Of a stretch of 64,000 nucleotides of DNA, positions 20,611-42,826 are shown piece by piece; position 1 is the stretch's first letter, and each line of letters starts with the position of its first letter. The DNA lies in the NCBI GenBank assembly GCA_015068855.1, contig SVJS01000007.1, positions 1-64,000 of the forward strand. The letters are read 5' to 3'. A program made the position numbers and the translations under genes. The notes beneath the pieces are model-generated. The model had not been told where the DNA came from and ran no database searches. It saw only the letters and a list, made by a program, of their open reading frames with translations. This DNA comes from Oscillospiraceae bacterium. GTDB taxonomy: Bacteria; Bacillota; Clostridia; UBA1381; UBA9506.

Positions 20611-20646
20611 TACACATGCACATACGTACAACTGTTGATAAGCGTT

Positions 20647-20818
20647 GATAGCTCCCCATCCGCCCGAAGCAGGATGACAGTGACACGATTTTTAATCGGG
20701 CCCCCAGGTCTATGCGGGCGGAACTGCATAACCTTCGGCGTTTTTTCCTTTTGCGGCAATGTCAGCAAATTTCCGCATTCTCTTTTGCCGTTACTGATAA
20801 AAAACGCGCCTCTATCTA
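20647..20818 (-). promoter_or_regulatory. Lysine riboswitch (L box)
   Basis: Read on the minus strand, the conserved L-box elements appear in order: AGATAGAGGCGCG, ATCAGTAA, CGCCGAAGG, CTGGGG, CACTGTCAT and finally GGATGGGGAGCTATC. The last element pairs with GATAG of the first to form P1. The whole is ~172 bases, a normal size. With the downstream terminator this is an OFF switch: lysine binding favours termination and lowers asd-dapA-dapB expression. Confidence 0.95.
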
Positions 20819-20826
20819 CATTTATT

Positions 20827-21881: not shown

Positions 21882-22065
21882 AGGATTGTTTGTATACTGT
21901 GGACATATCAGTCAAACAGCTCGCGTCTATCTGCATTTTCAGTTTAAAATGCCGGTTTCAGAGGCGCAAAGGTCAATAAAAAACAGCAGGCGGGAAGAGA
22001 AGGGGCCTGAGGTTTTTTAGTATAAAAAGTGTATAAACAAAAACAAAAGGAAGGTGCGTGGTGTA
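21882..22065 (+). promoter_or_regulatory. Long structured 5' leader
   Basis: About 185 bases separate the predicted transcription start from the ATG at 22066. The leader holds an inverted repeat GCATTTT (21933-21939)/AAAATGC (21946-21952), a GAGGCGCAAAGG stretch (21961-21972), and a terminator-like element: CAGGC (21987-21991)/GCCTG (22005-22009) followed by AGGTTTTTTAG. It does not match a riboswitch class I know. It may be an attenuator or an mRNA-stabilising leader. Confidence 0.5.
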
Positions 22066-25000
22066 ATGAAAGGTTTACACAAACAATGCTTGTCATTGCT
22101 GCTTTCTGTGCTGATGATTCTCAGCATGGGCATTTTGCCTGTTGCAGCAGAACAAGAAGCAGATGCAACTGCGGAAACTGTTATTGCAGTAGAAGTTCCG
22201 GCGGAGCATCTTGCGTTGGTTGAAAAATGGGCAGCCCTGGGTATCATCCCGGCGGACACTGACCCGACAGCGGTGATCTCCCGCGTGGAGACAGCTAAGG
22301 TTATCGCCAACATCTTAGGCGTTGCAAACGTTGCTCCGTTTGCACACATTGTGGATGTTCCGGCTGATGCTGCCGGCGCCGTTCGCGCAGTGATTGACCT
22401 TGGTTTCTTTGATCCGGTTGAATCCAATTTCCGCCCGGATGAGAGCCTCTATATCAGTGGCGCTCTGAAAATGATGTGCGTTTTGATTGGCTATCCTCAG
22501 CGCATGCTGAGCAGCGGTGGCTCCCTGGCCCTGCAGGCTCGCCTGTCAAAGGGTATCAATGTAAGCTACGGCTCTGAATGTACATGGGCAACATTCTTGG
22601 AATTGTTAGAAAATGCAGCTGAGGAAGACTTGGTTCGCATTATTGGTTATGTTGACGGCAAAGCATTTTCCGCCGAAGTAACCAAAGGCACCACATTTTT
22701 AAGTGAGTATGTACATATTTTTGAAACCGAGGGCCGCATTGATGCCACCAGCATCACAGCTCTTGTGGGTTCAAAAACAGGTAGCGGCATTCGTATCGAC
22801 GGCGTGCATTATGATGATAAAGCAGGCCTCACGGATAAAATCGCCCGCGACGTAAAGGTTTGGTATTCTGTTGCCAGAAACGGCGACCGTACCGCCTTAT
22901 ATGCTGAACCGGCAGACGATGAAGTGATTTACACCATCGCGGATGTAGACATTTTGCCGGCTACCAACACTTCTACCGTTCATTTTGTAAACGAAGAGGA
23001 TGAGGATGACGAGATTGACGTTACCGGTGCAACCTTCCTGTTCAACGGTCATGTTCTTTCCGCTCCGACAGTTGATGACTTAAAGCCTGTAACCGGTCAG
23101 TTGCAGATTATTGACGTAGCAGATGACGGCGACGGTGACATTGTTTACATCAGCAGCGTTGAGACCTTTGTAGTTAAGGAAGTTAACGCAAAGAGCCTTT
23201 ACCTTTCCGATAAATATAATGATGAAAAAATTCTGCGCCTGGATGAAGACTGTGAATACACAGTTCTGAAACGTGGCGTAGCCATCAGCTTCGCTGACAT
23301 CATCAAGAACAATGTTGTTTATGTTGGTATGAGTAAAGATGGCGATTATGCATTAATTGACGTTTATGCTGCACAGCAGAAGGGCGTTTTAACAGGCAGA
23401 ACCAGTGATTCCATTTTCATTGATGATAAGGAATTCCCTGTTGCAGCAGCCAATGCAGACATTATCTTGGGCCTGGCACTGGGTGCACAGTACACCTTCT
23501 TTGAAGGTATGGGTGGCACAATTGCAGGTGCTGTTGAAACTGTTAATGAAGATACCTATGGTTACCTGACTCGTGCTAAAACAGTCACCTCCGGTCTGTC
23601 TAACGGTGCCGTTCTCAGAATTTTCTCCGCGACATACGGTCTTTCCGACTACAACACTGCTGAGAAAGTTTACGTTAACGGCGTGAGAAAGACACCGGCA
23701 GAAATGATAACCATCTTAAAGGATGGTGGCAGCGAGGTTGCAGACCAGGCTGTTATGTTCCGCTTAAATGCTGACGGCGAGCTGTCTCACCTGCAGATTG
23801 CGGTTACAACACCTGCAGCAGACCTCTACAATGAGGCGCTGTTCTCTAAGGACTGGGAATTCTCAAACGTTACAGCTGTATTGCCCGGCTTAATGGCTTC
23901 CAAGTACATTTTTGACGGTAGCATGACAACCTTCAGCGTTCCGAAAGATGGTAGCGGTAACGTTATGGAAGATGATATCGCAGTGGTTAATTCTTCCACT
24001 ATGAACTTTGACGGCTTCACCTATTCCGGTGTTGTCTATGATGCAACCGCTGACCGTAACGTTAAACTGTTCATCTGGGAGCGTGCTTCCGGCTCTTCCG
24101 GTGCAGATTTAACCACGGACCGTTCACAGTTTATGGTTGTTAACAAGGTTTATAAGAAGTTAAATAAAGACAATGAGATTGTAACCGTTGTTGACGGTTT
24201 CTATGATAGACTCCCCGTTGAGTATGTTGTCAGTGAAAAATGCGTAGCCAGCAATGGCGAAGCTGCTGTTTTAGTTGACCACGATGCTTTGGACTTGCAG
24301 TTTGGTGACGTTATCCATGCTTCCCTGGATGGTGGCGGCAGAATGCAGGGCTTTAAGCGTGTGTTCACCTTAGATGAACGAGAGGGTAACTTATCTCCCT
24401 TTAACAAGGGCATCTTCGGTTGTGCCGGTTGGAACGTATCCATTGCAACACCCTATAGCGCAGCTTCCGTTGGCGACAGTAACTTAGGTAGCCTCGGAAA
24501 CTGGGCATCTGTACACATTGACCCGGTTCGTGTTATGGGCAACAACATGTTGGTTAACGCTCATACCGGCCTGGTAGATTCCTTAATTGCACCGTATGGT
24601 TATAATTCCGTTCTTGTCGTTGATGAAGCATCCAAGACCATCCGCACAGGTAGCCCTGCTGCTGATGTAATGCCTTATGATGAAAATCAGACGGTTCTGC
24701 TTCAGATGATGAACGGACGTTACCAGCACCTGATTATCATTAACCATGAACCTGACGTTGAATATGCATCCTGGATGTATGAACCGTTCACAACAGCAGA
24801 GCTGAACTCGGCCGGCCTGCCGTATCACGTAGGTGGCGCGGAAAGATGGTCAGCTGATGGCGCAGTTCTTAATTATGCATTGGTTGCTAACCCCGCTGAT
24901 GCTACTGATACTGTTCTGAAGATTACAAATGGTTCCGAGCAGAATAACTCTATGAATATGGTAGTGACAGATGTTGCTAAGCCGACACAGAATCCGATGG

Positions 25001-26118
25001 CATTCAGCCTGAGATTCCGTCTCTACATTGATGAATTTACAAATGACGCAGGCGCATCCTTCCGCATTGGTAACTCTGCTAACTCTGTCAGCATCCATGA
25101 TGGTGCTCTGTGGTTAAGAACCGGTGCCGGTGAATCTAAGATTTTAGATTACACAACTGACACTTGGTATGAACTGTGTCTGCAGGTTGCAAAACAATCC
25201 GCAACCAGCACCACAACAACCGTTTTTGTTGACGGCGTCCGCGCTGTTAAGAGAATGGCCAACGATGGTGACTGGACCTTTAACGGCGAAGACAGAGGTT
25301 ACTTCAACCTTGAAAACGCCGGCGAAGGCGATGCTGTTAACATGGCATACACCGTTTATGTTGACGATGTATACTTAGATTGGGATAAGGCTCCCGAAAA
25401 TGTAAACTATGACGGCGAAGTTCCTGTCTTTACAGAACTTCAGCTTCCCGATTATCTGCAGAATGAAGAATTTGTTGACACAATTGTTACGGGTGGTATC
25501 CCCTCTAATGGTAGCGGCGACCTGTCCTGGAATGCAGGTATGAACGCATTTGAGGTTATGGCAGACCCGGATGATCCGGCAGATAACATTCTGAAGATCA
25601 GCCTTGCAAGCGGCACAGCGCACTGGCCGGTTCCCTCTGCCCTGTCTTGCACAAGACTGGCAACGGCTACACCGTCTGAATACACGGTTGAATTCAGATT
25701 CAAGATGTCCGCTAGCAGCAGCCATGCATGGGCACAGAGACCGTTTGGTATTTACTTAGGTAATACCATCTTGGGTGTTGCATGGCGTGGCGGCGAATCG
25801 GCTGACCTGTTTATCACCAATAACCTTGACTGGGGTGGAAATACACCGCCGGCCGCTAAGGGTACAGCAAGACTGGCAGGCATCAACGGCTGGGCAACCA
25901 TCAAGCTTCGCGTTTACCAGAGCGGCGGCCAGACCGTGAAAGACCTGTGGGTTAACGGCACGCAGGTAGCAACAGCTCTTGCAGACTTTAATACAACGCA
26001 GCAGATTACACCGCAGGCTGACGGTGGCTATCTCAGGATCGGTAACGGTATTAACTCCCAGGCAACATGTCCGTGGAGTGTATACTTAGACTACGTGAAG
26101 TATAGCCAGGTTGACTAA
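22066..26118 (+). CDS. Large secreted SLH-type surface protein with C-terminal jelly-roll domains
   Basis: I do not recognise a named family for the whole 1350-residue protein. It has a signal peptide (~1-28, SVLMILSMGILPVAA), then one or two weak SLH-like repeats (~45-150, e.g. WAALGIIPADTDPTAVISRVETA) that would attach it to wall polymers. A long beta-rich region follows (~200-860) with repeated small modules of the type seen in S-layer proteins (YVNGVRKTPAEM, SIFIDDKEFPVA). Two LamG-like/concanavalin-like sandwiches make up the C-terminus (~905-1110 and ~1120-1350; FRIGNSANSVSI, VDGVRAVKR and LWVNGTQVA). No catalytic motif is visible, so a structural or glycan-binding role is likely. GTT, GGT and AAC codons are frequent, as in gapA. 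AAGGAAGGTG precedes the ATG. Confidence 0.8.
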   Translation: MKGLHKQCLSLLLSVLMILSMGILPVAAEQEADATAETVIAVEVPAEHLALVEKWAALGIIPADTDPTAVISRVETAKVIANILGVANVAPFAHIVDVPADAAGAVRAVIDLGFFDPVESNFRPDESLYISGALKMMCVLIGYPQRMLSSGGSLALQARLSKGINVSYGSECTWATFLELLENAAEEDLVRIIGYVDGKAFSAEVTKGTTFLSEYVHIFETEGRIDATSITALVGSKTGSGIRIDGVHYDDKAGLTDKIARDVKVWYSVARNGDRTALYAEPADDEVIYTIADVDILPATNTSTVHFVNEEDEDDEIDVTGATFLFNGHVLSAPTVDDLKPVTGQLQIIDVADDGDGDIVYISSVETFVVKEVNAKSLYLSDKYNDEKILRLDEDCEYTVLKRGVAISFADIIKNNVVYVGMSKDGDYALIDVYAAQQKGVLTGRTSDSIFIDDKEFPVAAANADIILGLALGAQYTFFEGMGGTIAGAVETVNEDTYGYLTRAKTVTSGLSNGAVLRIFSATYGLSDYNTAEKVYVNGVRKTPAEMITILKDGGSEVADQAVMFRLNADGELSHLQIAVTTPAADLYNEALFSKDWEFSNVTAVLPGLMASKYIFDGSMTTFSVPKDGSGNVMEDDIAVVNSSTMNFDGFTYSGVVYDATADRNVKLFIWERASGSSGADLTTDRSQFMVVNKVYKKLNKDNEIVTVVDGFYDRLPVEYVVSEKCVASNGEAAVLVDHDALDLQFGDVIHASLDGGGRMQGFKRVFTLDEREGNLSPFNKGIFGCAGWNVSIATPYSAASVGDSNLGSLGNWASVHIDPVRVMGNNMLVNAHTGLVDSLIAPYGYNSVLVVDEASKTIRTGSPAADVMPYDENQTVLLQMMNGRYQHLIIINHEPDVEYASWMYEPFTTAELNSAGLPYHVGGAERWSADGAVLNYALVANPADATDTVLKITNGSEQNNSMNMVVTDVAKPTQNPMAFSLRFRLYIDEFTNDAGASFRIGNSANSVSIHDGALWLRTGAGESKILDYTTDTWYELCLQVAKQSATSTTTTVFVDGVRAVKRMANDGDWTFNGEDRGYFNLENAGEGDAVNMAYTVYVDDVYLDWDKAPENVNYDGEVPVFTELQLPDYLQNEEFVDTIVTGGIPSNGSGDLSWNAGMNAFEVMADPDDPADNILKISLASGTAHWPVPSALSCTRLATATPSEYTVEFRFKMSASSSHAWAQRPFGIYLGNTILGVAWRGGESADLFITNNLDWGGNTPPAAKGTARLAGINGWATIKLRVYQSGGQTVKDLWVNGTQVATALADFNTTQQITPQADGGYLRIGNGINSQATCPWSVYLDYVKYSQVD

Positions 26119-26341
26119 GATTTTTATTCTATTATTCTCCCTATATCGAGGGAGCAGACTTGCTCCCTCGGTCCCGCTTGTGGGTGGAGAAGTGTAGTAG
26201 AAGGCTTGCCGGGCAAGGCGGCTGAAAAATCTGCCTTGCATGGCTTGCAGACGTGCTTTTTAGCACATTATTTTGATTATCCCGTTGGGTTTTCCCAACA
26301 GTCTATATTGGAAACGATTACTCAGAAAAGGAGGAATCAGC
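26119..26341 (+). other. Structured intergenic region between two secreted-protein genes
   Basis: A perfect 10-bp inverted repeat CGAGGGAGCA-gact-TGCTCCCTCG lies at 26147-26170, without a T run. Further on, GCAAGGC pairs with GCCTTGC (around 26214-26240), GTGCtttttaGCAC follows, and GTTGGGttttCCCAAC lies at 26283-26298. I see no good promoter here. The hairpins could trim or stabilise a shared transcript or reduce read-through into the second gene. Confidence 0.5.
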
Positions 26342-29011
26342 ATGAAACGATTATTTGCTCTTCTCGTTGCTTTCGTGATGCTTGCAAGCTGCGGCACCAT
26401 TGCTTTTGGTGCTGACCTGGAAACCCCCGGCTATGCAGCAGGCATTGCCGGCGTGTATTCATCCGGTAACGAAGCAGGCAACGTGGTAGAGAATATTTTC
26501 GATGGTTCGCTGGGTACCAAATGGGCTCACGATGCCAGACCCAGTGTGGTTTGGTTCAAGACTGACCCGGCTGTAACCTATGACCATATTAACATTGCAC
26601 TCACAAACGGCCATCTTCGTCATTATGAATTTGAACTGGCGGTCATGGCAGAAGATGGCAAAAGCTGGGATATCGTCTGGGACCACACGCAGAAGAAAAG
26701 CTCCGGCACAACGGACCAGCTTGAGCGCTTTGATTTTACAAAACCCGTAAACAGTGAATGGCTTCGTTTCACAGGGTATGGTTCTGATGTTAACCTTTGG
26801 AACAACCTGAGTGAAATTACGGGTGTGCCCCTGCAGGAGGGCCCCTCCGGTCTCGTTATTGTTGGTACGGAGTGGAAGCAGGAACTTGCCGTTAAAGATG
26901 TTGACGGTCAGAGCTACCTGCCGTTTATTCAAACCGCAGAGTCCTGCGGTTATGTAGCGAGCTGGGATCAGGCAACAGGCGTGGTAACGGCTGTTAATGA
27001 AGGCAGCGGCTGGAACCTGAAAGCTGTTGTTGATTCAATCAGCTACACAACACAGGAGGGTTCTTTTGATATCGAAAAACCCCTGACTGTGATTGATGGC
27101 GAACTTATGTGTCCCATTGATTCATTAGATGAACTGATCAGCTATAACTGTTCGCTGACAGAATCCAGCCACACCTATGGCATTAACTATCAGCGTGCAA
27201 CAAAGGAAATTCTGGCGGCGCTTGATGAAATGTCCTCCATGATTTCCGTGCAGGGTCAGATGGAACTGTATGCAAGTCTCTTTGACCCGGACACCTGCGC
27301 TATGTATTTTGGTCAGGGCGCTGTTGGACGTGCGGGTTTTGGCCCCGGTATTGAGCCTACGGCACAGTCCGGTATTGCCGGCGTTTTGAAAAAATACGCG
27401 CCCGATAAGCTCCAGAGATTAGGCGAATGGGTGCAGGGCTTGCAGGACCCCGTAACCGGCTGGTTCATGGAGCCGGAATACACCATTGATACGCAGGGCG
27501 ACGGTAAAAAACAGCGTAACCTGCAAATGGGTATTTCCATTCTGAATGCTTGTGGCATGAAGCCTCTTTACTTAACACCCACCGAACGCGTTATGCAGAA
27601 TCAGACACAAACAGAGGCAACCGGTGGTGCCACAACTGAGAAAGAGGAAGAGACAGTTTTAGAGGCCGATGCTAAATATCAGTCTTTAGAAGCCTACATG
27701 AATTATGTTAAAACAAACTTTGACTGGGATGGCGATGGCGTTGGTGCCAGCGTTTGGTCCGCCGGTAACGATATCGGTGATATCGCCGGAACCTTAAAAG
27801 AATTAGGATACTTAGATGCAGTTTCCGAATTCATTCGCTCTCAGCAGAGACCGGATAACGGCCTGTTTACCGATGAGATTAACATCACAGGTATTTCCGC
27901 TGTTACCAAGCTGTCCGGTATGTATACGTTAACCGGAACCCCCATGCCTTACATGGATAAAATCATTGAATCAGCCGCATGGCTTGCTGAAAACACAGAC
28001 TTTGCCGGTATATCCGAGCCTTACAACATTAGCCTTGCGATTCGCTTCATGGTTAACTCTGCCGGTTCTGCCGGTTTGGATGAGGCAACCCAGCAGCAGT
28101 TGAATGAGGCTGCTCCCCGTTTTGTTCGCGGTTTGTCCGCGGGCCTGAAAAAGTTCTTAAAGGACGACGGTGGTTTTGGTTATAGCCCTTCAGGTCCTTG
28201 TACACATTCGCAGGGCGCCAGCGTGCTTCCGGTAGGCTATGACTGCGCTGACGTTAACGGTAATCAGCTTGCCCTGGGCGTTATTAATGACCTGTACTGG
28301 ATGATGGGTATGACCACCCCTGTTTATAAGGATGAGGCCCTTTGGTGGGAGCTGATTAAGGATAAAGCCCCCATCACCGAGCCCTTAATTGAAATGCCCG
28401 GTAAAGCAGGCTATTTCTTTGAAGATGGCGAAATCGGAACTGTCAGCAAGGGTGTTTCCAAGGTTAATCCCATTATTGAAGACCCTGTTAACTGGCACAA
28501 TCAGTGCATCAAGGTTGACCTGAAAAAGGGCGGGAACCTTTGCGGTACCGGCGAGTTCTGCGAAGAAAAGCAGGCCATCAATTTCAGCATTATGTTAGGT
28601 AAGGTCCGCTCTCACGGCTCCGGCTTGTTCTATGGCGGACTTGGTCAGGCAGTGCAGATTTCTTCGTCAGCAAGCTCCGGCAATCTGATGCTCTATCTAA
28701 GACGTCACGGTAGCGACGGTATCGGCGTTGCCATGTCAACACCGCTCGAACCCTTTATGTGGTACGACATTCGCATTGAATATGAACCGAAAGGCCATGA
28801 CGATACGGAATTCAGAATGTATGTTAACGGTAAATTAACCGGTACAACAAACATCTTCATGAATTCGCAGTCTCCGGCAGCAGTGCCGAACAAGGATGCA
28901 ACCGGTCTTTCCTTTACGCCTTATATGAACACAGATGCAGATATCTATTTGGATAATGTTTGGTTTGAGGCAGACTGGGATAAACCGAAAGCTGAAGAAA
29001 CAGAAGAATAA
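26342..29011 (+). CDS. Secreted multidomain protein with putative alpha/alpha-toroid domain (paralogue 1)
   Basis: Not a family I can name; 889 residues. The N-terminus MKRLFALLVAFVMLASC contains a possible lipobox (LASC, Cys17), but a signal-peptidase-I site after AFGA is also possible. Visible segments are a discoidin/F5-8C-like sandwich (~30-160, NIFDGSLGTKWAHD), a copper-amine-oxidase-N-like domain (~165-290, SYLPFIQTAESCGY), a helical repeat domain (~300-690) and a C-terminal LamG-like sandwich (~700-880, YVNGKLTG). The helical domain has repeated LQDPVTGWFMEP-, LLNACG/ILNACG- and GGFGYSPSGP-type motifs and is clearly homologous to the protein at 60761. Such repeats suggest an alpha/alpha toroid as in polysaccharide lyases and related enzymes, but that is inference. 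AAAGGAGG precedes the ATG at 26342. Confidence 0.75.
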   Translation: MKRLFALLVAFVMLASCGTIAFGADLETPGYAAGIAGVYSSGNEAGNVVENIFDGSLGTKWAHDARPSVVWFKTDPAVTYDHINIALTNGHLRHYEFELAVMAEDGKSWDIVWDHTQKKSSGTTDQLERFDFTKPVNSEWLRFTGYGSDVNLWNNLSEITGVPLQEGPSGLVIVGTEWKQELAVKDVDGQSYLPFIQTAESCGYVASWDQATGVVTAVNEGSGWNLKAVVDSISYTTQEGSFDIEKPLTVIDGELMCPIDSLDELISYNCSLTESSHTYGINYQRATKEILAALDEMSSMISVQGQMELYASLFDPDTCAMYFGQGAVGRAGFGPGIEPTAQSGIAGVLKKYAPDKLQRLGEWVQGLQDPVTGWFMEPEYTIDTQGDGKKQRNLQMGISILNACGMKPLYLTPTERVMQNQTQTEATGGATTEKEEETVLEADAKYQSLEAYMNYVKTNFDWDGDGVGASVWSAGNDIGDIAGTLKELGYLDAVSEFIRSQQRPDNGLFTDEINITGISAVTKLSGMYTLTGTPMPYMDKIIESAAWLAENTDFAGISEPYNISLAIRFMVNSAGSAGLDEATQQQLNEAAPRFVRGLSAGLKKFLKDDGGFGYSPSGPCTHSQGASVLPVGYDCADVNGNQLALGVINDLYWMMGMTTPVYKDEALWWELIKDKAPITEPLIEMPGKAGYFFEDGEIGTVSKGVSKVNPIIEDPVNWHNQCIKVDLKKGGNLCGTGEFCEEKQAINFSIMLGKVRSHGSGLFYGGLGQAVQISSSASSGNLMLYLRRHGSDGIGVAMSTPLEPFMWYDIRIEYEPKGHDDTEFRMYVNGKLTGTTNIFMNSQSPAAVPNKDATGLSFTPYMNTDADIYLDNVWFEADWDKPKAEETEE

Positions 29012-30429: not shown

Positions 30430-30458
30430 GGCTGTGGTTTAAGGCCACAGCCCTTTTT
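30430..30458 (+). terminator. Terminator after the aminotransferase
   Basis: GGCTGTGG-tttaagg-CCACAGCC followed by CTTTTTAT. Confidence 0.88.
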
Positions 30459-30499: not shown

Positions 30500-32434
30500 A
30501 TGATAAGAAGACTTATTGCTATACTATTGTCCGGTGCAATGTTTCTTAGTTCCTTTTGTTTGGTTAATGCGAATGCAAACAAGACCATTCCGGAGGTTCC
30601 ATCTGTTTTCACAACAGAGCACATAGCCTACATAACCGGACGAGAGGGAAATCAGATTGAACCCTATGCGTTGATTACAAGAGCGGAGGTTGCGGCGATT
30701 CTCTCCCGGCTGTTGCGAGAGGAATTTCGAAATGTAAATCATGGGTCGGTACAACGGTTTGCAGATGTTCGTGAGGACCAATGGTTTTTTGAGCCGGTTA
30801 TGCTGATGGTTAATCTTGGCATTATAAACGGCAGGACAGAAACGGAATTTTCTCCCGATGCGCCCGTGACAAGAGCGGAGCTTGCAGCCATTGCGGCACG
30901 ATTTGCAGAGGAAGAGGCAAAGGAGAAGGTGCAGTTTGTCGATATGGAAAACCACTGGGCAAAGCCCTATGTTGAAAAGGTTGTAGATTTTGGCTGGATG
31001 GATGGTTATGGCAGAGTTTTTTATCCGGATAATCGCTTGATTCGAGCAGAGGTTATCACAACAATTAACCGCATGTTAAAGCGTGAGCCTGAAACGGTTG
31101 CGGATATTTTGCCGCAGGATATGTTGCGCTTTAAGGATAACAGTGACACCAAGGCCTGGTACTATCTGGCGATTCAGGAAGCAGCGAACAGCCATACCCA
31201 TGTCATGAAAGAAGATGGCGTTCATGAAACCTGGGGCAAGGTGCTTTCCGTTGTTCCGCCTGTAACGCTTCAAAATGCAGCACGATATCAACAAGCAACA
31301 GAGCTTACAGACCAGATGGTTCGAAAAGCCATGGATGATGCTGTTGAAAAACTGCGTCGTAACATTCCGAAATGGGAAACAAAGTTCCCAACTGCGTACA
31401 GCAATAACAGTCAATATGGCGTATCAGGTGGTATCAACTGGACAAGCGGCATGTTAACAGGCTGCTATTGGCTTGCCTATGAATACACAAAGGATAGTGC
31501 GTTTCGAGAGGCGGCTCTGCAACACACCAATCAATTTCAAACGTTTGCTCAGAATGCCAACAACTTGAATGACCATGATACAGGGTTTATCTATACGCCG
31601 TCCTGCGTGGCCGGCTATAAAATTATGAAGAATGACGCCCTGCGGAAAACAGCAATTTCGGCAGCGGAGACTTTATTGACCCATTATGATTGGGAGAACA
31701 ATTTTATTATTCGCTCCGGATATAGAAATGTGTCTAATTATAATGGCTATCGCACTCTGGTGGACTCCATGATGAATATTCCCCTGTTTTTCTTTGCCTA
31801 TCAGGAAACAGCAGAACAGCAGTTCTATCAGGCGGCGATGGAGCACTATCGAACAACGATGCAATATTTGATTCGTAACGATGGGTCATCCTATCATCAT
31901 TACCAATTTGACCCTGCAACAGGTGCTCCGGTTGGTGGTGTTACTCATCAGGGGAATAGTAATGAGTCCTGTTGGAGCAGGGGACATTCATGGCTGCTTT
32001 ACGGGTTTCCTATTGCATATAGCTACACAAAGGATAAGGAAATAATAGATGTTTATAAAAAGGTGGCATATTTCTACTTAAACAACCTGCCGTCAGACAA
32101 CATTCCGTATTGGGATTTTGATTTTAACGAGGGAAGCTCCGAGCCTCGTGATGCATCAGCGGCGGCCATCACGGTTTGCGGTTTTTTGGAAATGTGCAAA
32201 TGGTTGCCGGAGGGGTCTGCCGATAAAATATACTTTAAGAATGCGGCAGATGCGCAAATGCGAGCTTTAATTACGAACTGTGCCGACACATCCGTCGGCA
32301 ATGGCCTGATTGGGAAGGTCAGCCACGCAGTTCCGCAAAAAAACGGCATTTTGGAATATGCCGTTTACGGCGATTATTTTTACATGGAAGCCCTAATGCG
32401 CTATCTAAACCCGGATTGGCAACGGTATTGGTAA
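30500..32434 (+). CDS. SLH-anchored GH88 unsaturated glucuronyl hydrolase
   Basis: Enzymes of glycoside hydrolase family 88 hydrate the double bond of unsaturated uronic acids left by polysaccharide lyases, releasing keto-uronate. The 644-residue protein has a signal peptide (~1-26) and three SLH repeats (~35-75, 85-138, 145-195: FADVREDQWF, ITRAEVAAIL, HWAKPYVEKVVDFGWMDGYG). A partial fourth lies at ~208-245. The (alpha/alpha)6 catalytic domain spans ~265-640. The two catalytic aspartates are present: Asp360 in NDHDTGF and Asp422 in LVDSMMN. The substrate loop reads CWSRGHSWLLYG (~491-502) where WARGQAW is usual. GGGAGG precedes the ATG. Classical GH88 enzymes are cytoplasmic, so surface anchoring is notable. 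Confidence 0.88.
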   Translation: MIRRLIAILLSGAMFLSSFCLVNANANKTIPEVPSVFTTEHIAYITGREGNQIEPYALITRAEVAAILSRLLREEFRNVNHGSVQRFADVREDQWFFEPVMLMVNLGIINGRTETEFSPDAPVTRAELAAIAARFAEEEAKEKVQFVDMENHWAKPYVEKVVDFGWMDGYGRVFYPDNRLIRAEVITTINRMLKREPETVADILPQDMLRFKDNSDTKAWYYLAIQEAANSHTHVMKEDGVHETWGKVLSVVPPVTLQNAARYQQATELTDQMVRKAMDDAVEKLRRNIPKWETKFPTAYSNNSQYGVSGGINWTSGMLTGCYWLAYEYTKDSAFREAALQHTNQFQTFAQNANNLNDHDTGFIYTPSCVAGYKIMKNDALRKTAISAAETLLTHYDWENNFIIRSGYRNVSNYNGYRTLVDSMMNIPLFFFAYQETAEQQFYQAAMEHYRTTMQYLIRNDGSSYHHYQFDPATGAPVGGVTHQGNSNESCWSRGHSWLLYGFPIAYSYTKDKEIIDVYKKVAYFYLNNLPSDNIPYWDFDFNEGSSEPRDASAAAITVCGFLEMCKWLPEGSADKIYFKNAADAQMRALITNCADTSVGNGLIGKVSHAVPQKNGILEYAVYGDYFYMEALMRYLNPDWQRYW

Positions 32435-32440
32435 TTAAAA

Positions 32441-32475
32441 AGCAGCAGTGGTTATAACCACTGCTGCTTTTTTTA
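32441..32475. terminator. Bidirectional terminator between GH88 and the nuclease gene
   Basis: AGCAGCAGTGG-ttataa-CCACTGCTGCT with A residues before it and TTTTTTT after it, placed between converging genes. Confidence 0.9.
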
Positions 32476-33522: not shown

Positions 33523-34713
33523 TTAATAGCATTCATAGAGCCTGAGTGCTGTTGCAATGGCCTGTTCAACCGTGTAGATTCCCTTTGGCTCAAACCGGGT
33601 TTCGGAGGTGCCCCGCATGATGTCCATACTCTTCATGGTTCTGACGGCAGAGCGGGCCCAATCTGAAATGGCGTTTTCATCATCATACAGGCTGGCAGAG
33701 CCTGCGCCCGGTATGGTTTTGTTTTGTAAAAACACGGCTGTTCTGTATAGCAACGTTGCCGCTTGTTCCCGTGTGATAGAAGCATCAGGAGCAAAGGTTC
33801 CGTCGCCCATGCCCAAAATGATGCCGGCAGCGGCTAAGAACTGAATTTTGTAGTCCTCACAATCGGAGAAAGAGACAGCCTGCATTTTGTCTGCCAGTTG
33901 CCGCTCAGCCGTAACACGCTCAATGGTGGCAACCTCTCCCATTCTCGAATCGCTGTCAGGCGAAAATTCGGTTGCAATTAAACGGTACATTAAACTGCCA
34001 AATTCCTGTCTTGTGATGCTGTTTCTGTATCCATCCGTCAGCTCATAGGGCAACAGGTTACAAGCCGCGGCCTTTTGAATTTCGGCTTTTGCCCATGGGC
34101 TTGCGTCCGCTGTCATTAGGAGGTTTTGCCCGGGCAAACTTGCCGCGTCATCCGGTGTTGATTCCCGTAACGTCCCGGCAAAAGTATCAGAATTTTCAAA
34201 CAAGTATTTTGTGGCCAATTTGGTGTCCGCGGTGTATAAAGCGTTTCGGCCGTTGCCGATATAGGGCAGATACCAAATATAATTTTTCTTTGTTTCTCCA
34301 TGAGAAAAAGAGGGCTCGCCGTAGGCGCCAACGATAACGCCGCCGTTTGGATAGACAACATAGGACTTTGTTTTATCCTTTGTCCACAATTTGATATAGT
34401 ATTCATAGGAGACCGTCTCATCATAGGGCACAATCACGCGGTCGAATGGCGAAAAATTCCAATAGACGGTAAGCCATGAACGTAAATCTTCCTGACCGAT
34501 ATCGGCGCATTGCCCGTCCTGTTTAACCATTGCGGCGCTTCCGATTTCATCCATATCACTAAGCCCTAAAACAGCATGGAACGGCTGCCCTGCGGGCATA
34601 TAACGCTGCATTGGCGCAGAGGTTACAAAAGCGGACTCAGCGTGGGTTGAGCCGGCGGGAAACGTAGTTGCCAAAAGCGTAAACATTAATAAAAAGGCGA
34701 ATGTTTTCTTCAT
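33523..34713 (-). CDS. Secreted SLH-domain surface protein of unknown function
   Basis: A 396-residue exported protein. A signal peptide (~1-25, FLLMFTLLATTFPAGSTHA) precedes an unrecognised N-terminal beta-rich domain (~26-185, with YYIKLWTKDKTKSYVVYPNG). Three C-terminal SLH repeats follow (~190-245, 270-330, 340-396: SPWAKAEIQKAAACNLLP, AAGIILGMGDGTFAPDASIT, ARSAVRTMKSMDIMRG). The SLH repeats bind pyruvylated wall polymers in other bacteria. The N-terminal part resembles a stalk domain of wall sensors rather than an enzyme. I chose ATG 34711-34713, with AGGA nine bases upstream, over earlier ATGs. Confidence 0.82.
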   Translation of the reverse strand: MKKTFAFLLMFTLLATTFPAGSTHAESAFVTSAPMQRYMPAGQPFHAVLGLSDMDEIGSAAMVKQDGQCADIGQEDLRSWLTVYWNFSPFDRVIVPYDETVSYEYYIKLWTKDKTKSYVVYPNGGVIVGAYGEPSFSHGETKKNYIWYLPYIGNGRNALYTADTKLATKYLFENSDTFAGTLRESTPDDAASLPGQNLLMTADASPWAKAEIQKAAACNLLPYELTDGYRNSITRQEFGSLMYRLIATEFSPDSDSRMGEVATIERVTAERQLADKMQAVSFSDCEDYKIQFLAAAGIILGMGDGTFAPDASITREQAATLLYRTAVFLQNKTIPGAGSASLYDDENAISDWARSAVRTMKSMDIMRGTSETRFEPKGIYTVEQAIATALRLYECY

Positions 34714-34806
34714 TATTCTCATTCCTGACATTATGTTTTTTTTGGTCGTGTTGTAGCCGTCGATAAGGGATACGGCAGGCAAGGAAAACCGTTGCTTTAT
34801 AATTTT

Positions 34807-34836
34807 ATTATAACGCCTTATGCACTTTTGTGTCAA
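34807..34836 (-). promoter_or_regulatory. Promoter of the minus-strand SLH gene
   Basis: Minus strand TTGACA (34831-34836) and TATAAT (34807-34812) with an 18-base spacer. It diverges from the promoter at 34881, about 45 bases away. Confidence 0.82.
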
Positions 34837-34880
34837 GTGATTGGCAAAATACCTTCATGGGCTTTTTTGCCCGCTGTCTC

Positions 34881-34909
34881 TTGACTTCTGTCATAGAATT
34901 TTATATTAT
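34881..34909 (+). promoter_or_regulatory. Promoter of the DUF4091 gene
   Basis: TTGACT (34881-34886) and TATTAT (34904-34909), 17-base spacer. Confidence 0.68.
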
Positions 34910-34949
34910 TAAGATATATATTTGTATCATGTTAAAGGTGGGGACTATT

Positions 34950-36602
34950 ATGGCTATGAAAGTCAAGCAAGTGTCATCCTTAGAGAAAATAATGACCAAA
35001 AATTATGACGATGCTAAAACCATATACCAAAAAACCGTGATGGGTGGCGAGAGTTTTTCTTATCAGCTTGCCATCTGCCCTGATGATTTTGTGGATATTT
35101 TCTTTACGGTGCAATCGCCCTTGAAAGAGGCAGTCAGCCTATACGAAGTGAGAAACACTGTGATGGATTTGCCTATCTATTCCTATGCCATTGATGATGA
35201 TTACATCACGCGTTCTGCCGGCACAATGCCGGATTTGCTCTTGCCGCTTGAAGCAGAAAAACCGATGCGACTCGTTTACGAAGCGGGGGCACTCTGGGTG
35301 GAGGTTAATGTGCCTGAAAACACACCTGCAGGGACCTATTCCGTAGAGATTGATGTACGTGCCATTTTGGTTGGTAACGGAGAGGTGGGCTACGAAGGCA
35401 GGGAAACCATGCAGATAGAGGTGCTGCCCTGCAACATCCCTACACAAAAAACAATCTACACGCAGTGGTTCCACACGGACTGCATTGCGGACTATCATAA
35501 TGTGCCTGTTTATAGTGAAGCACATTGGGAACTCATTGATGCCTATATGGCCCTTTATGCAAAGCTTGGCGGTAACATGATTTTAACGCCGATTATCACG
35601 CCGCCCTTAGATACGGGCCTGGGCATCCGTCGTACGAATGTACAGCTTGTGGATTTTGAGAAAAAGGGCCATGTTTACAGTTTTGATTTTTCCCGTCTTG
35701 TCCGCTGGATTTCTTTGGTTAATAAGAACGGCATCCGTTATTTTGAAATGTCGCCCCTGTTTTCGCAGTGGGGCCTTGCCTATACGCCCAATATCCTGGT
35801 AAAGGAAAATGGAGAAGAGTCCTATCTTTTTGGCTGGGAGATGGATTCTCACAACCCGGAATATAAAAACTTTTTATCTCAGTTTCTTCCGGCATTGATT
35901 GATTTTGCCAAGGAGCAGGGGATTAAAGAACGGCTTTATTTCCATATCTCGGATGAGCCTAACGAAAAGCATCTGGATGCCTACCGGTTTGCCCATGATT
36001 TAATAGTGCCGCTGATTGATGGTTGCCCTACAATGGATGCCCTTTCTAATTATGCATTTTACGAAAAGGGACTTGTGCCTGTGCCTGTGACCTCCATTGC
36101 TGACCTTGCACCCTTCCTTGAAAACAAGGTGGAAAATCAGTGGGGTTATTATTGTTGCAGTCATTTTGATGCGGTATCCAACCGCTTTATGGCAATGCCT
36201 TCTTACCGTAACCGTATTATCGGCCTGCAAATTTACAAATTCGGTTTAGTTGGCTTTTTGCATTGGGGCTATAACTTTTATAACAGCATGCATTCCCGCA
36301 AGCAGATTAACCCTTATCTTACTTCTTCGGCAGAAGGAACATTTCCATCCGGCGACGCATTCTCTGTATATCCTGTGAAAAATGGCGTTGCTCCCTCTTT
36401 GCGCGCCCTGGTCTTCAAGGAAGCGCTGACAGATGTTGAGGTCTGCCGAAAACTTGAGGAATATATCGGTAAAGATGCGGTTGTTAAGATGATTGACGAT
36501 GCGGCAGGGATGGACCTGACTTTCAAGGACTATCCGCGTCAAAAGGAGTTTATCCCGAACCTGATGAACAAGATGATGGAGAAAATTAAGACGTTTATCT
36601 AA
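34950..36602 (+). CDS. DUF4091 / GH123-like protein
   Basis: The 550-residue protein has the layout of DUF4091/GH123-type proteins: an N-terminal beta-sandwich (~1-160, LWVEVNVPENTPAGTYSVEI) and a TIM-barrel-like domain (~165-520). The barrel includes FHTDCIADYH, YFEMSPLFSQWG, and LYFHISDEPNE (~residues 328-338) with the Asp-Glu pair used by GH123 beta-N-acetylgalactosaminidases. LHWGYNFYNS is also typical. There is no signal peptide, so it should act in the cytoplasm on imported sugars. GH123-like activity is an inference; the family includes uncharacterised members. Of several starts, ATG 34950 is best placed after AAGGTGGGG. Confidence 0.82.
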   Translation: MAMKVKQVSSLEKIMTKNYDDAKTIYQKTVMGGESFSYQLAICPDDFVDIFFTVQSPLKEAVSLYEVRNTVMDLPIYSYAIDDDYITRSAGTMPDLLLPLEAEKPMRLVYEAGALWVEVNVPENTPAGTYSVEIDVRAILVGNGEVGYEGRETMQIEVLPCNIPTQKTIYTQWFHTDCIADYHNVPVYSEAHWELIDAYMALYAKLGGNMILTPIITPPLDTGLGIRRTNVQLVDFEKKGHVYSFDFSRLVRWISLVNKNGIRYFEMSPLFSQWGLAYTPNILVKENGEESYLFGWEMDSHNPEYKNFLSQFLPALIDFAKEQGIKERLYFHISDEPNEKHLDAYRFAHDLIVPLIDGCPTMDALSNYAFYEKGLVPVPVTSIADLAPFLENKVENQWGYYCCSHFDAVSNRFMAMPSYRNRIIGLQIYKFGLVGFLHWGYNFYNSMHSRKQINPYLTSSAEGTFPSGDAFSVYPVKNGVAPSLRALVFKEALTDVEVCRKLEEYIGKDAVVKMIDDAAGMDLTFKDYPRQKEFIPNLMNKMMEKIKTFI

Positions 36603-41062: not shown

Positions 41063-42826
41063 ATGTTTAAGGGTCTGCAATGGAAAGTGGTGATGATTTT
41101 CGTTTCCGTGGTAATCGCGATTATGACGGTTGCCGGAACGTTTATGTTTTTCTCCGTCACCAATTCATATTATGAACTGTTTGCGGATGAGATGGATTCG
41201 GTTTTCACAGAATCACTGCTTGAACAGATGAAAACCGGTGCCGCAGCAGGCGAGGATTATGTCAAGCAGGTTTTATCTGCCTATACGGCTCGTATCGGCA
41301 TTGACTCCTACCGCAACTATTACATTTTGGAGGCCCAAAGCGGGCAAGTTATTGATAGCTCTGCCGTGCCGGGAGACAGTTTTTCAATGCATACCCCCAA
41401 CATGATAATGGCCCTTTCGGGGCAGGTTGGTCGTGAGGTCAACCCCAGAGCCTCGGTCATGGACTATGCTGTGCCGGTTCAGGGGGATGGGTTTTTCTAT
41501 GTAATTTATGTCCGCGACACCATGCAGGAACTGACGGCGGTTATTGAGCGCATTGTCAGCATCGTTTTGCAGGCACTTTTGCTGGGTGTTTCCATTGCAC
41601 TGTGTCTCGGTTATTTTCTGTCAAGAACCATCACAACCCCCATTCAGAACCTGACCCACAAGGTGCAGGGCCTGGCAGAGGGCGAGTTTGAGTCTAAAAT
41701 TGAGGTTAAGTCCGATGATGAAATTGGTACCTTAACGGAAGCTTTTAACGACATGTCCACCAAATTGCAGGAAGCCATGCTGCAAATGTCAACGGAAAAG
41801 AATAAGGTGGAAGCCATTTTGGTTAACATGACGGATGGCGTTATGGCCTTTGCAACGGACGGCAACCTGATTCATATTAACCCCACGGCGCGGAAAATGT
41901 TTTCTCTTTCGGAGACGGAAAGCATTAATTTCGATGAGTTTTTTGAAAAAAATCATGCAGACATCCGACTGGGTGATTTGTTATATTTAGAGGATAACCG
42001 CTTTATGGAGCGGGATATTGAGCTTGCCAATCTATCCATTAAAGCCAGCTTTGTTGTGTTTGAAGACGAGCTTGATAACAAAGGCTCCGTTTTGGTTGTG
42101 CTCCATGACGTTACCCGCCAGCAGAAGCTTGAAAATGCACGTCGTGAATTTGTTGCCAATGTGTCTCACGAGCTGAGAACCCCGCTGACGACGGTTAAGT
42201 CCTATGCAGAAACCTTGCTTGATATGGTGGACGGAACCGATGTTCCCGTTTCCTTTATTAATACGATTGTGAATGAAACGGACCGCATGACAAGATTGGT
42301 TAAAGACCTTTTGGTGCTGTCGAGCTTAGAGCAATCGGGGCAGCTTAACAAGTCTAGCTTTGACATGAAAGTGCTTTTGGCGGAGGTGGTTGATACTTTG
42401 AGCCTTGTTGCCAAGGAGCAGGGGCACAGACTAAACCTTAAAACAAAGGGCGACTTCTCTGATTTTTATGGAGACAGAGACCGTTTGGAACAGCTTTTGT
42501 ATAACATTATTTCCAATTCACTTAAATACACGCCCAACGGCGGGAAAATTGAAGTGACGGCTGAACGTATTTATAACACCGTTTATATCCGTGTTAAAGA
42601 TAACGGTATCGGCATTCCGGAAAAGGATTTAGGACGCATTTTTGAACGTTTTTACCGTGTGGATAAAGCCAGAAGCAGGCAGCAGGGCGGAACGGGCCTC
42701 GGGCTTGCTATTTCCAAGAACATTGTGGATGCTCATGAGGGAAACATCTCCATTATGAGCGCCTTGCAAAAGGGTACGGAAGTGACGATTTCCCTGCCTG
42801 TTTTGCCTCCGGAACTGGCCGGCTGA
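41063..42826 (+). CDS. walK: Sensor histidine kinase WalK (YycG)
   Basis: Membrane kinase for WalR that adjusts autolysin and wall-metabolism genes. The 587 residues contain a first membrane segment (~8-30), an extracellular sensing domain (~30-165) and a second segment (~168-190). These are followed by HAMP (~192-245, TTPIQNLTHKVQGLAEGEF), a PAS domain (~250-350), the dimerisation/phosphorylation helix (VSHELRTPLTTVKSYAE, ~371-387) and the ATPase domain (N box ISNSLKYTPNGG, G boxes DNGIGIPEKDL and GTGLGLAIS). Length and domain order match WalK exactly. Confidence 0.95.
   Translation: MFKGLQWKVVMIFVSVVIAIMTVAGTFMFFSVTNSYYELFADEMDSVFTESLLEQMKTGAAAGEDYVKQVLSAYTARIGIDSYRNYYILEAQSGQVIDSSAVPGDSFSMHTPNMIMALSGQVGREVNPRASVMDYAVPVQGDGFFYVIYVRDTMQELTAVIERIVSIVLQALLLGVSIALCLGYFLSRTITTPIQNLTHKVQGLAEGEFESKIEVKSDDEIGTLTEAFNDMSTKLQEAMLQMSTEKNKVEAILVNMTDGVMAFATDGNLIHINPTARKMFSLSETESINFDEFFEKNHADIRLGDLLYLEDNRFMERDIELANLSIKASFVVFEDELDNKGSVLVVLHDVTRQQKLENARREFVANVSHELRTPLTTVKSYAETLLDMVDGTDVPVSFINTIVNETDRMTRLVKDLLVLSSLEQSGQLNKSSFDMKVLLAEVVDTLSLVAKEQGHRLNLKTKGDFSDFYGDRDRLEQLLYNIISNSLKYTPNGGKIEVTAERIYNTVYIRVKDNGIGIPEKDLGRIFERFYRVDKARSRQQGGTGLGLAISKNIVDAHEGNISIMSALQKGTEVTISLPVLPPELAG

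Follow-up and report, generated by a model that had tools for sequence, protein, structure and literature searches.

A GH88 domain joined to a signal peptide and an SLH module in an Oscillospiraceae genome: a probable surface-anchored unsaturated glucuronyl hydrolase

Introduction

In streptococci, the polysaccharide lyase works at the cell surface and the unsaturated glucuronyl hydrolase (UGL) of family GH88 in the cytoplasm after import of the products (PMC6837340), and the Bacteroides GH88 enzymes BT3348 and BT4658 act on lyase products in the periplasm (PMC9067506). The window analysed here, a stretch of 64,000 nucleotides from an Oscillospiraceae bacterium with a small genome (contig SVJS01000007.1, positions 1 to 64,000), contains an open reading frame that a sequence-only reading had taken for a GH88 enzyme fused to SLH repeats. 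The locus raises the question of whether such a hydrolase works outside a Gram-positive cell, and on which substrate.

Results and discussion

Gene structure

The ORF was recovered at exactly the coordinates given in the sequence-only reading, and Pfam finds both SLH and Glyco_hydro_88 in its product.

30500..32434, + strand: SLH-GH88 fusion gene, 644 aa, ATG start (ORF call plus domain searches)
30430..30452, + strand: terminator-like hairpin 5' of the ORF, after the upstream aminotransferase gene (consensus match only)
32444..32468, + strand: terminator-like hairpin 3' of the ORF (consensus match only)

A GGGAGGG-like ribosome site lies upstream of the ORF, and the terminator-like hairpins on both sides suggest a single-gene unit. 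The GC content is 0.465 in the SLH part and 0.451 in the GH88 part, compared with 0.468 for the window, and since it is even along the gene, nothing points to a chimera made by the assembly. The complete ORF was recovered unaltered in the genome, which is the same assembly as the window. The analysis confirmed that one ORF encodes a predicted signal peptide, an SLH module and the entire GH88 domain.

The GH88 catalytic domain

31262..32431, + strand: GH88 catalytic domain, residues 255-644 (matches SagUGL 3anj over its full length)
31577..31579, + strand: catalytic Asp D360, SagUGL D115 (alignment with SagUGL)
31763..31765, + strand: catalytic Asp D422, SagUGL D175 (alignment with SagUGL)

The Pfam profile Glyco_hydro_88 (PF07470) matched residues 309-619 with an E value of 1.7e-19 and 70.5 bits against a cut-off of 26.6. 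When solved structures were searched, residues 255-644 matched the Streptococcus agalactiae UGL (SagUGL, 3anj) over the full length with an E value of 2.5e-88. The two domains share about 37% identity (145/387 aligned positions) and end at the same last residue, and D360 and D422 align with D115 and D175 of SagUGL, so that both catalytic aspartates are kept, as had been proposed. In every test that we made on the sequence, the catalytic domain behaved as an ordinary GH88.

The export signal and the SLH module

30500..30577, + strand: Sec signal peptide, residues 1 to ~25 (MIRRLIAILLSGAMFLSSFCLVNANA) (hydropathy and inspection)
30623..30739, + strand: degenerate first SLH repeat, residues 42-80, with an LITRAEV motif (below the Pfam threshold; alignment with the SLH module of G015)
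30755..30886, + strand: SLH repeat, residues 86-129 (Pfam PF00395)
30935..31054, + strand: SLH repeat, residues 146-185 (Pfam PF00395)
31124..31249, + strand: half SLH repeat and module end, residues 209-250, RFKDN...HETWGKVL (conserved to its end in G015)

The N-terminus begins with MIRR, followed by a hydrophobic core (19-residue mean hydropathy 2.08) and an A-N-A site near residue 25, and inspection and hydropathy agree with the signal peptide claimed earlier. The same two approaches revealed no lipobox or further strongly hydrophobic segment in the protein. Pfam SLH matched two stretches with an E value of 5.9e-21. The earlier count of three or four SLH repeats is fair, with two full Pfam repeats, one degenerate repeat containing ITRAE, and one half repeat. 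Residues 33-250 share 47% identity with the three-SLH module at the C-terminus of a 644-aa repeat protein from a congeneric genome (G015), and the two modules align end to end. This identity suggests that the module behaves as a movable cassette, and the cassette stops just where the GH88 domain starts.

The genome also encodes the pyruvyltransferase CsaB (TIGR03609, 274.8 bits against a curated cut-off of 213.1) and contains 26 SLH matches. The presence of CsaB supports SLH anchoring of the target and, together with the 26 SLH matches and the secreted lyase-like proteins and KduI described below, strengthens the reading that we consider the best one, namely that the protein is probably a surface-anchored GH88 hydrolase.

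Two further proteins in the window were noted in this connection. Near the GH88 gene, the ORF at 33523-34836 (- strand) encodes an SLH protein whose large N-terminal region has no assigned function. The protein of 1354 aa encoded at 22054-26118 (+ strand) has a leader and gave no Pfam, NCBIfam or PDB match, and its N-terminus resembles diverged SLH repeats by eye.

Substrate loop and sulfate-site residues

31973..31993, + strand: WSRGHSW loop, WARGQAW in SagUGL (sequence and alignment)
32327..32344, + strand: positions of SagUGL S365, S368 and K370, here A610, Q613 and N615 (alignment with SagUGL)

The loop had been described as SRGHSW in place of WARGQAW, with a hint of altered specificity. 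SRGHSW is present, but the full motif is WSRGHSW and keeps the first W. Among 65 GH88-like frames, WARGQAW is the commonest form (30 frames), while H replaces Q in nine including the target, all within the clade of the target. The other eight are plain leaderless enzymes. Because H at this position marks a clade of ordinary GH88s, SRGHSW is unspecific as evidence on specificity, and we rejected it as a sign of a new one.

The residues R236, S365, S368 and K370 of SagUGL, which we take to be sulfate contacts, correspond to H483, A610, Q613 and N615 in the target, so the SagUGL-type residues for sulfated substrates are absent; some of the four are also missing in many other GH88 relatives. As far as the alignment can tell, this loss appears more informative on specificity than the loop. 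The sole sulfatase-family match in the genome looks LtaS-like.

The slightly unusual loop and the missing SagUGL contacts might also be taken to mean that the target is a degenerate or inactive fusion retained as a surface binding protein. We consider this highly improbable, since neither aspartate is lost, the loop keeps its R, G and W, no part of the domain is missing up to the last residue, and the branch length is within the range of the paralogues.

Paralogues and the search for other fusions

The genome encodes four full GH88s, comprising the target, a GH88 lipoprotein and two leaderless enzymes whose genes adjoin ABC importers. In the tree, the target and the lipoprotein are sisters (support 100/99) and the two transporter-linked enzymes group together (support 100/99). 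The nearest outside relatives of these paralogues belong to a different family within the class, a pattern that points to either shared ancestry or transfer. We tentatively propose, as a possibility somewhat short of an even chance, that the four paralogues split a single step between the wall (SLH), the membrane (lipid) and the cytoplasm (the two copies beside importers), and that the surface copies would finish lyase products to monosaccharides outside the Gram-positive cell.

GH88 matches at E values up to 1e-30 were found in 69 of the 95 genomes of the order, with the target genome counted, and no second SLH-GH88 fusion was present among the GH88 frames of these 95 genomes. There was likewise no such fusion in samples of 391 genomes of the class and 399 of the phylum, or among the matches listed for 400 genomes of one large-genome family, presumably Paenibacillaceae; with at most four candidates scored per genome, these three scans were shallower than that of the order, and rare fusions could escape them. 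A scan of genome contigs gave only an SLH match, in Paenibacillus, and no paper describing an SLH-GH88 fusion was found in the literature searched. Several long frames were rejected as fusions. Those in G268 and G460 are neighbouring ORFs, that in G269 is a GH88-like protein of greater length that lacks a leader, and that in G1186 is joined to a pyruvyltransferase-like ORF.

A convincing leader was observed in four of 82 distinct GH88-like frames, which are the target, its sister lipoprotein, and lipoproteins in G091 and G093 of the same order that join an N-terminal copper-amine-oxidase-N domain to GH88. These frequencies indicate that extracytoplasmic GH88s are rare but recurrent in this set, and SLH is one more route to them. 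A predicted place outside the cytoplasm does not by itself make the target unique, as GH88 lipoproteins exist in the same genome and in G091 and G093; the unusual feature is the SLH anchor. The novelty lies in this anchor and in the arrangement of four paralogues, and the enzyme itself is, by sequence comparison, ordinary.

Lyase-like proteins and uronate metabolism in the genome

Two large PL35-like lyase proteins with signal-like N-termini are encoded on contigs C17 and C18, and KduI (equivalog) adjoins a KduD-like dehydrogenase on C9; the SLH-GH88 gene lies on a different contig from all of these. The PL35-like proteins matched 8khv, 8khw and 9o3q over most of the lyase domain with E values from 5e-32 to 1e-46, a distant similarity. 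They carry a copper-amine-oxidase-N domain, and one has an F5/8-type domain. The catalytic triad of PL35 is Asn/Tyr/His, and its substrates include hyaluronan, chondroitin and heparan sulfate (PMC12088678). The residues matching N187, Y241 and H397 of GAGase VII (PMC12088678) are kept in both proteins when the alignments are read by eye at a constant numbering offset of 14. In Bacteroides caccae, a PL35-GH88 pair degrades chondroitin (PMC12269599). The genome gave no match to PL8, but the control search for PL8 was likewise silent, which gives this negative little weight. Taken together, these genes appear to form a coherent uronate-polymer pathway around the target.

The target could instead be a surface GH88 for another uronate polymer of plant, algal or bacterial origin, which we regard as rather unlikely. 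Several classes of lyase supply the substrates of GH88 and the related GH105 (PMC8511951), alginate is also cut by one PL35 enzyme (PMC12088678), an alpha-L-rhamnosidase-like protein is encoded near one PL35-like gene, and the SagUGL sulfate-site residues are missing, as described above. Against this, the two lyases found most resemble glycosaminoglycan-active PL35, and a gene for a GH123-like protein lies 2.4 kb from the target (34830-36602 of the window, + strand, E 2.8e-99, no leader evident; the true start is probably downstream of the listed GTG). Family GH123 is known for beta-N-acetylgalactosaminidases.

Other genes were noted beside these. The stretch L076:11481-16142 encodes two secreted-looking proteins (833 and 703 aa) for which Pfam gave no match; a PL35-like gene immediately precedes them, and a gene for an SLH protein follows. 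In the window, a protein of 912 aa (26273-29011, + strand) has a leader, a weak F5/8-type domain, a copper-amine-oxidase-N domain, a long middle that Pfam leaves unmatched and, at the C-terminus, a weak laminin-G-like match, and is possibly an unrecognised toroid enzyme. An ordinary lysine riboswitch (20641-20822, - strand) lies upstream of the aspartate-semialdehyde dehydrogenase, dapA and dapB genes.

Proposed role at the cell surface

The sequence shows the domains, the catalytic residues, the signal-like N-terminus and the presence and similarity of the other genes; from these we infer display at the surface, enzymatic activity, the substrate and how the steps follow one another. We consider it reasonably likely that the SLH-GH88 protein trims unsaturated uronate from the products of the PL35-like lyases at the cell surface, with paralogues carrying out the same trimming in the cytoplasm. 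Sec would export the protein and the SLH module would hold it in the wall, where it probably binds a pyruvylated secondary wall polymer that CsaB would help to make. The secreted PL35-like lyases would cut a uronate polymer outside the cell, leaving a 4,5-unsaturated uronate on each fragment, which the SLH-GH88 protein would take off at the surface. The most likely polymer is a glycosaminoglycan with light or no sulfation, although the link to this class, as opposed to other polymers of uronates, is indirect. The products or shortened fragments would then be imported, the two leaderless paralogues beside the ABC importers would treat fragments that enter intact in the same way, and KduI and the adjacent dehydrogenase would channel the uronate into metabolism.

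The target is a stand-alone gene between terminator-like hairpins, with catabolic paralogues elsewhere, and could alternatively serve mainly in sensing or signalling, releasing or clearing a small inducer near the membrane, and not be the main catabolic enzyme. Surface glycosidases have been reported as sensors (discussed in PMC4976890), and GH88 activity tunes the sensor in Bacteroides (PMC9067506). However, no dedicated sensor was identified beside the target, and the nearest histidine kinase (41063-42826) is WalK/PhoR-like; we thus find a sensing role very unlikely.

If surface trimming by the anchored enzyme is true, the end-trimming step in the use of uronate polymers, which normally follows uptake in Gram-positive bacteria, moves to the outer surface, and the share of products imported or leaked to neighbours would change. 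The genome would also offer a defined set of four paralogues for testing why one enzyme is kept in several compartments.

Comparison with known systems

SagUGL (gbs1889; GH88; PDB 3anj and others) resembles the target over the whole catalytic domain, with the same catalytic aspartates. It differs in the four residues R236, S365, S368 and K370, and is cytoplasmic after PTS import (PMC6837340), whereas the target has a signal peptide and an SLH module. The Bacteroides enzymes BT3348, BT4658 and BcGH88, the last of which works after a PL35 lyase (PMC12269599), belong to a Gram-negative setting, and no SLH anchor is described for them in the literature consulted. The GH88 lipoproteins of G091, G093 and the target genome are extracytoplasmic like the target, with a lipid anchor in place of SLH.

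The attachment of CAZymes through SLH modules is a well-documented feature of Gram-positive bacteria, with a predicted SLH hyaluronate lyase among the examples, and such enzymes make sugars next to the cell (PMC4765114, PMC4976890). Cel5I and, from Paenibacillus sp. JDR-2, Xyn10A1 and hyaluronate lyase 3195 combine a signal peptide, SLH repeats and a CAZyme domain as the target does (PMC4976890, PMC4765114). However, the SLH-anchored CAZymes are mostly large polymer-degraders with binding modules, while the target is compact, would trim chain ends, and has no binding module.
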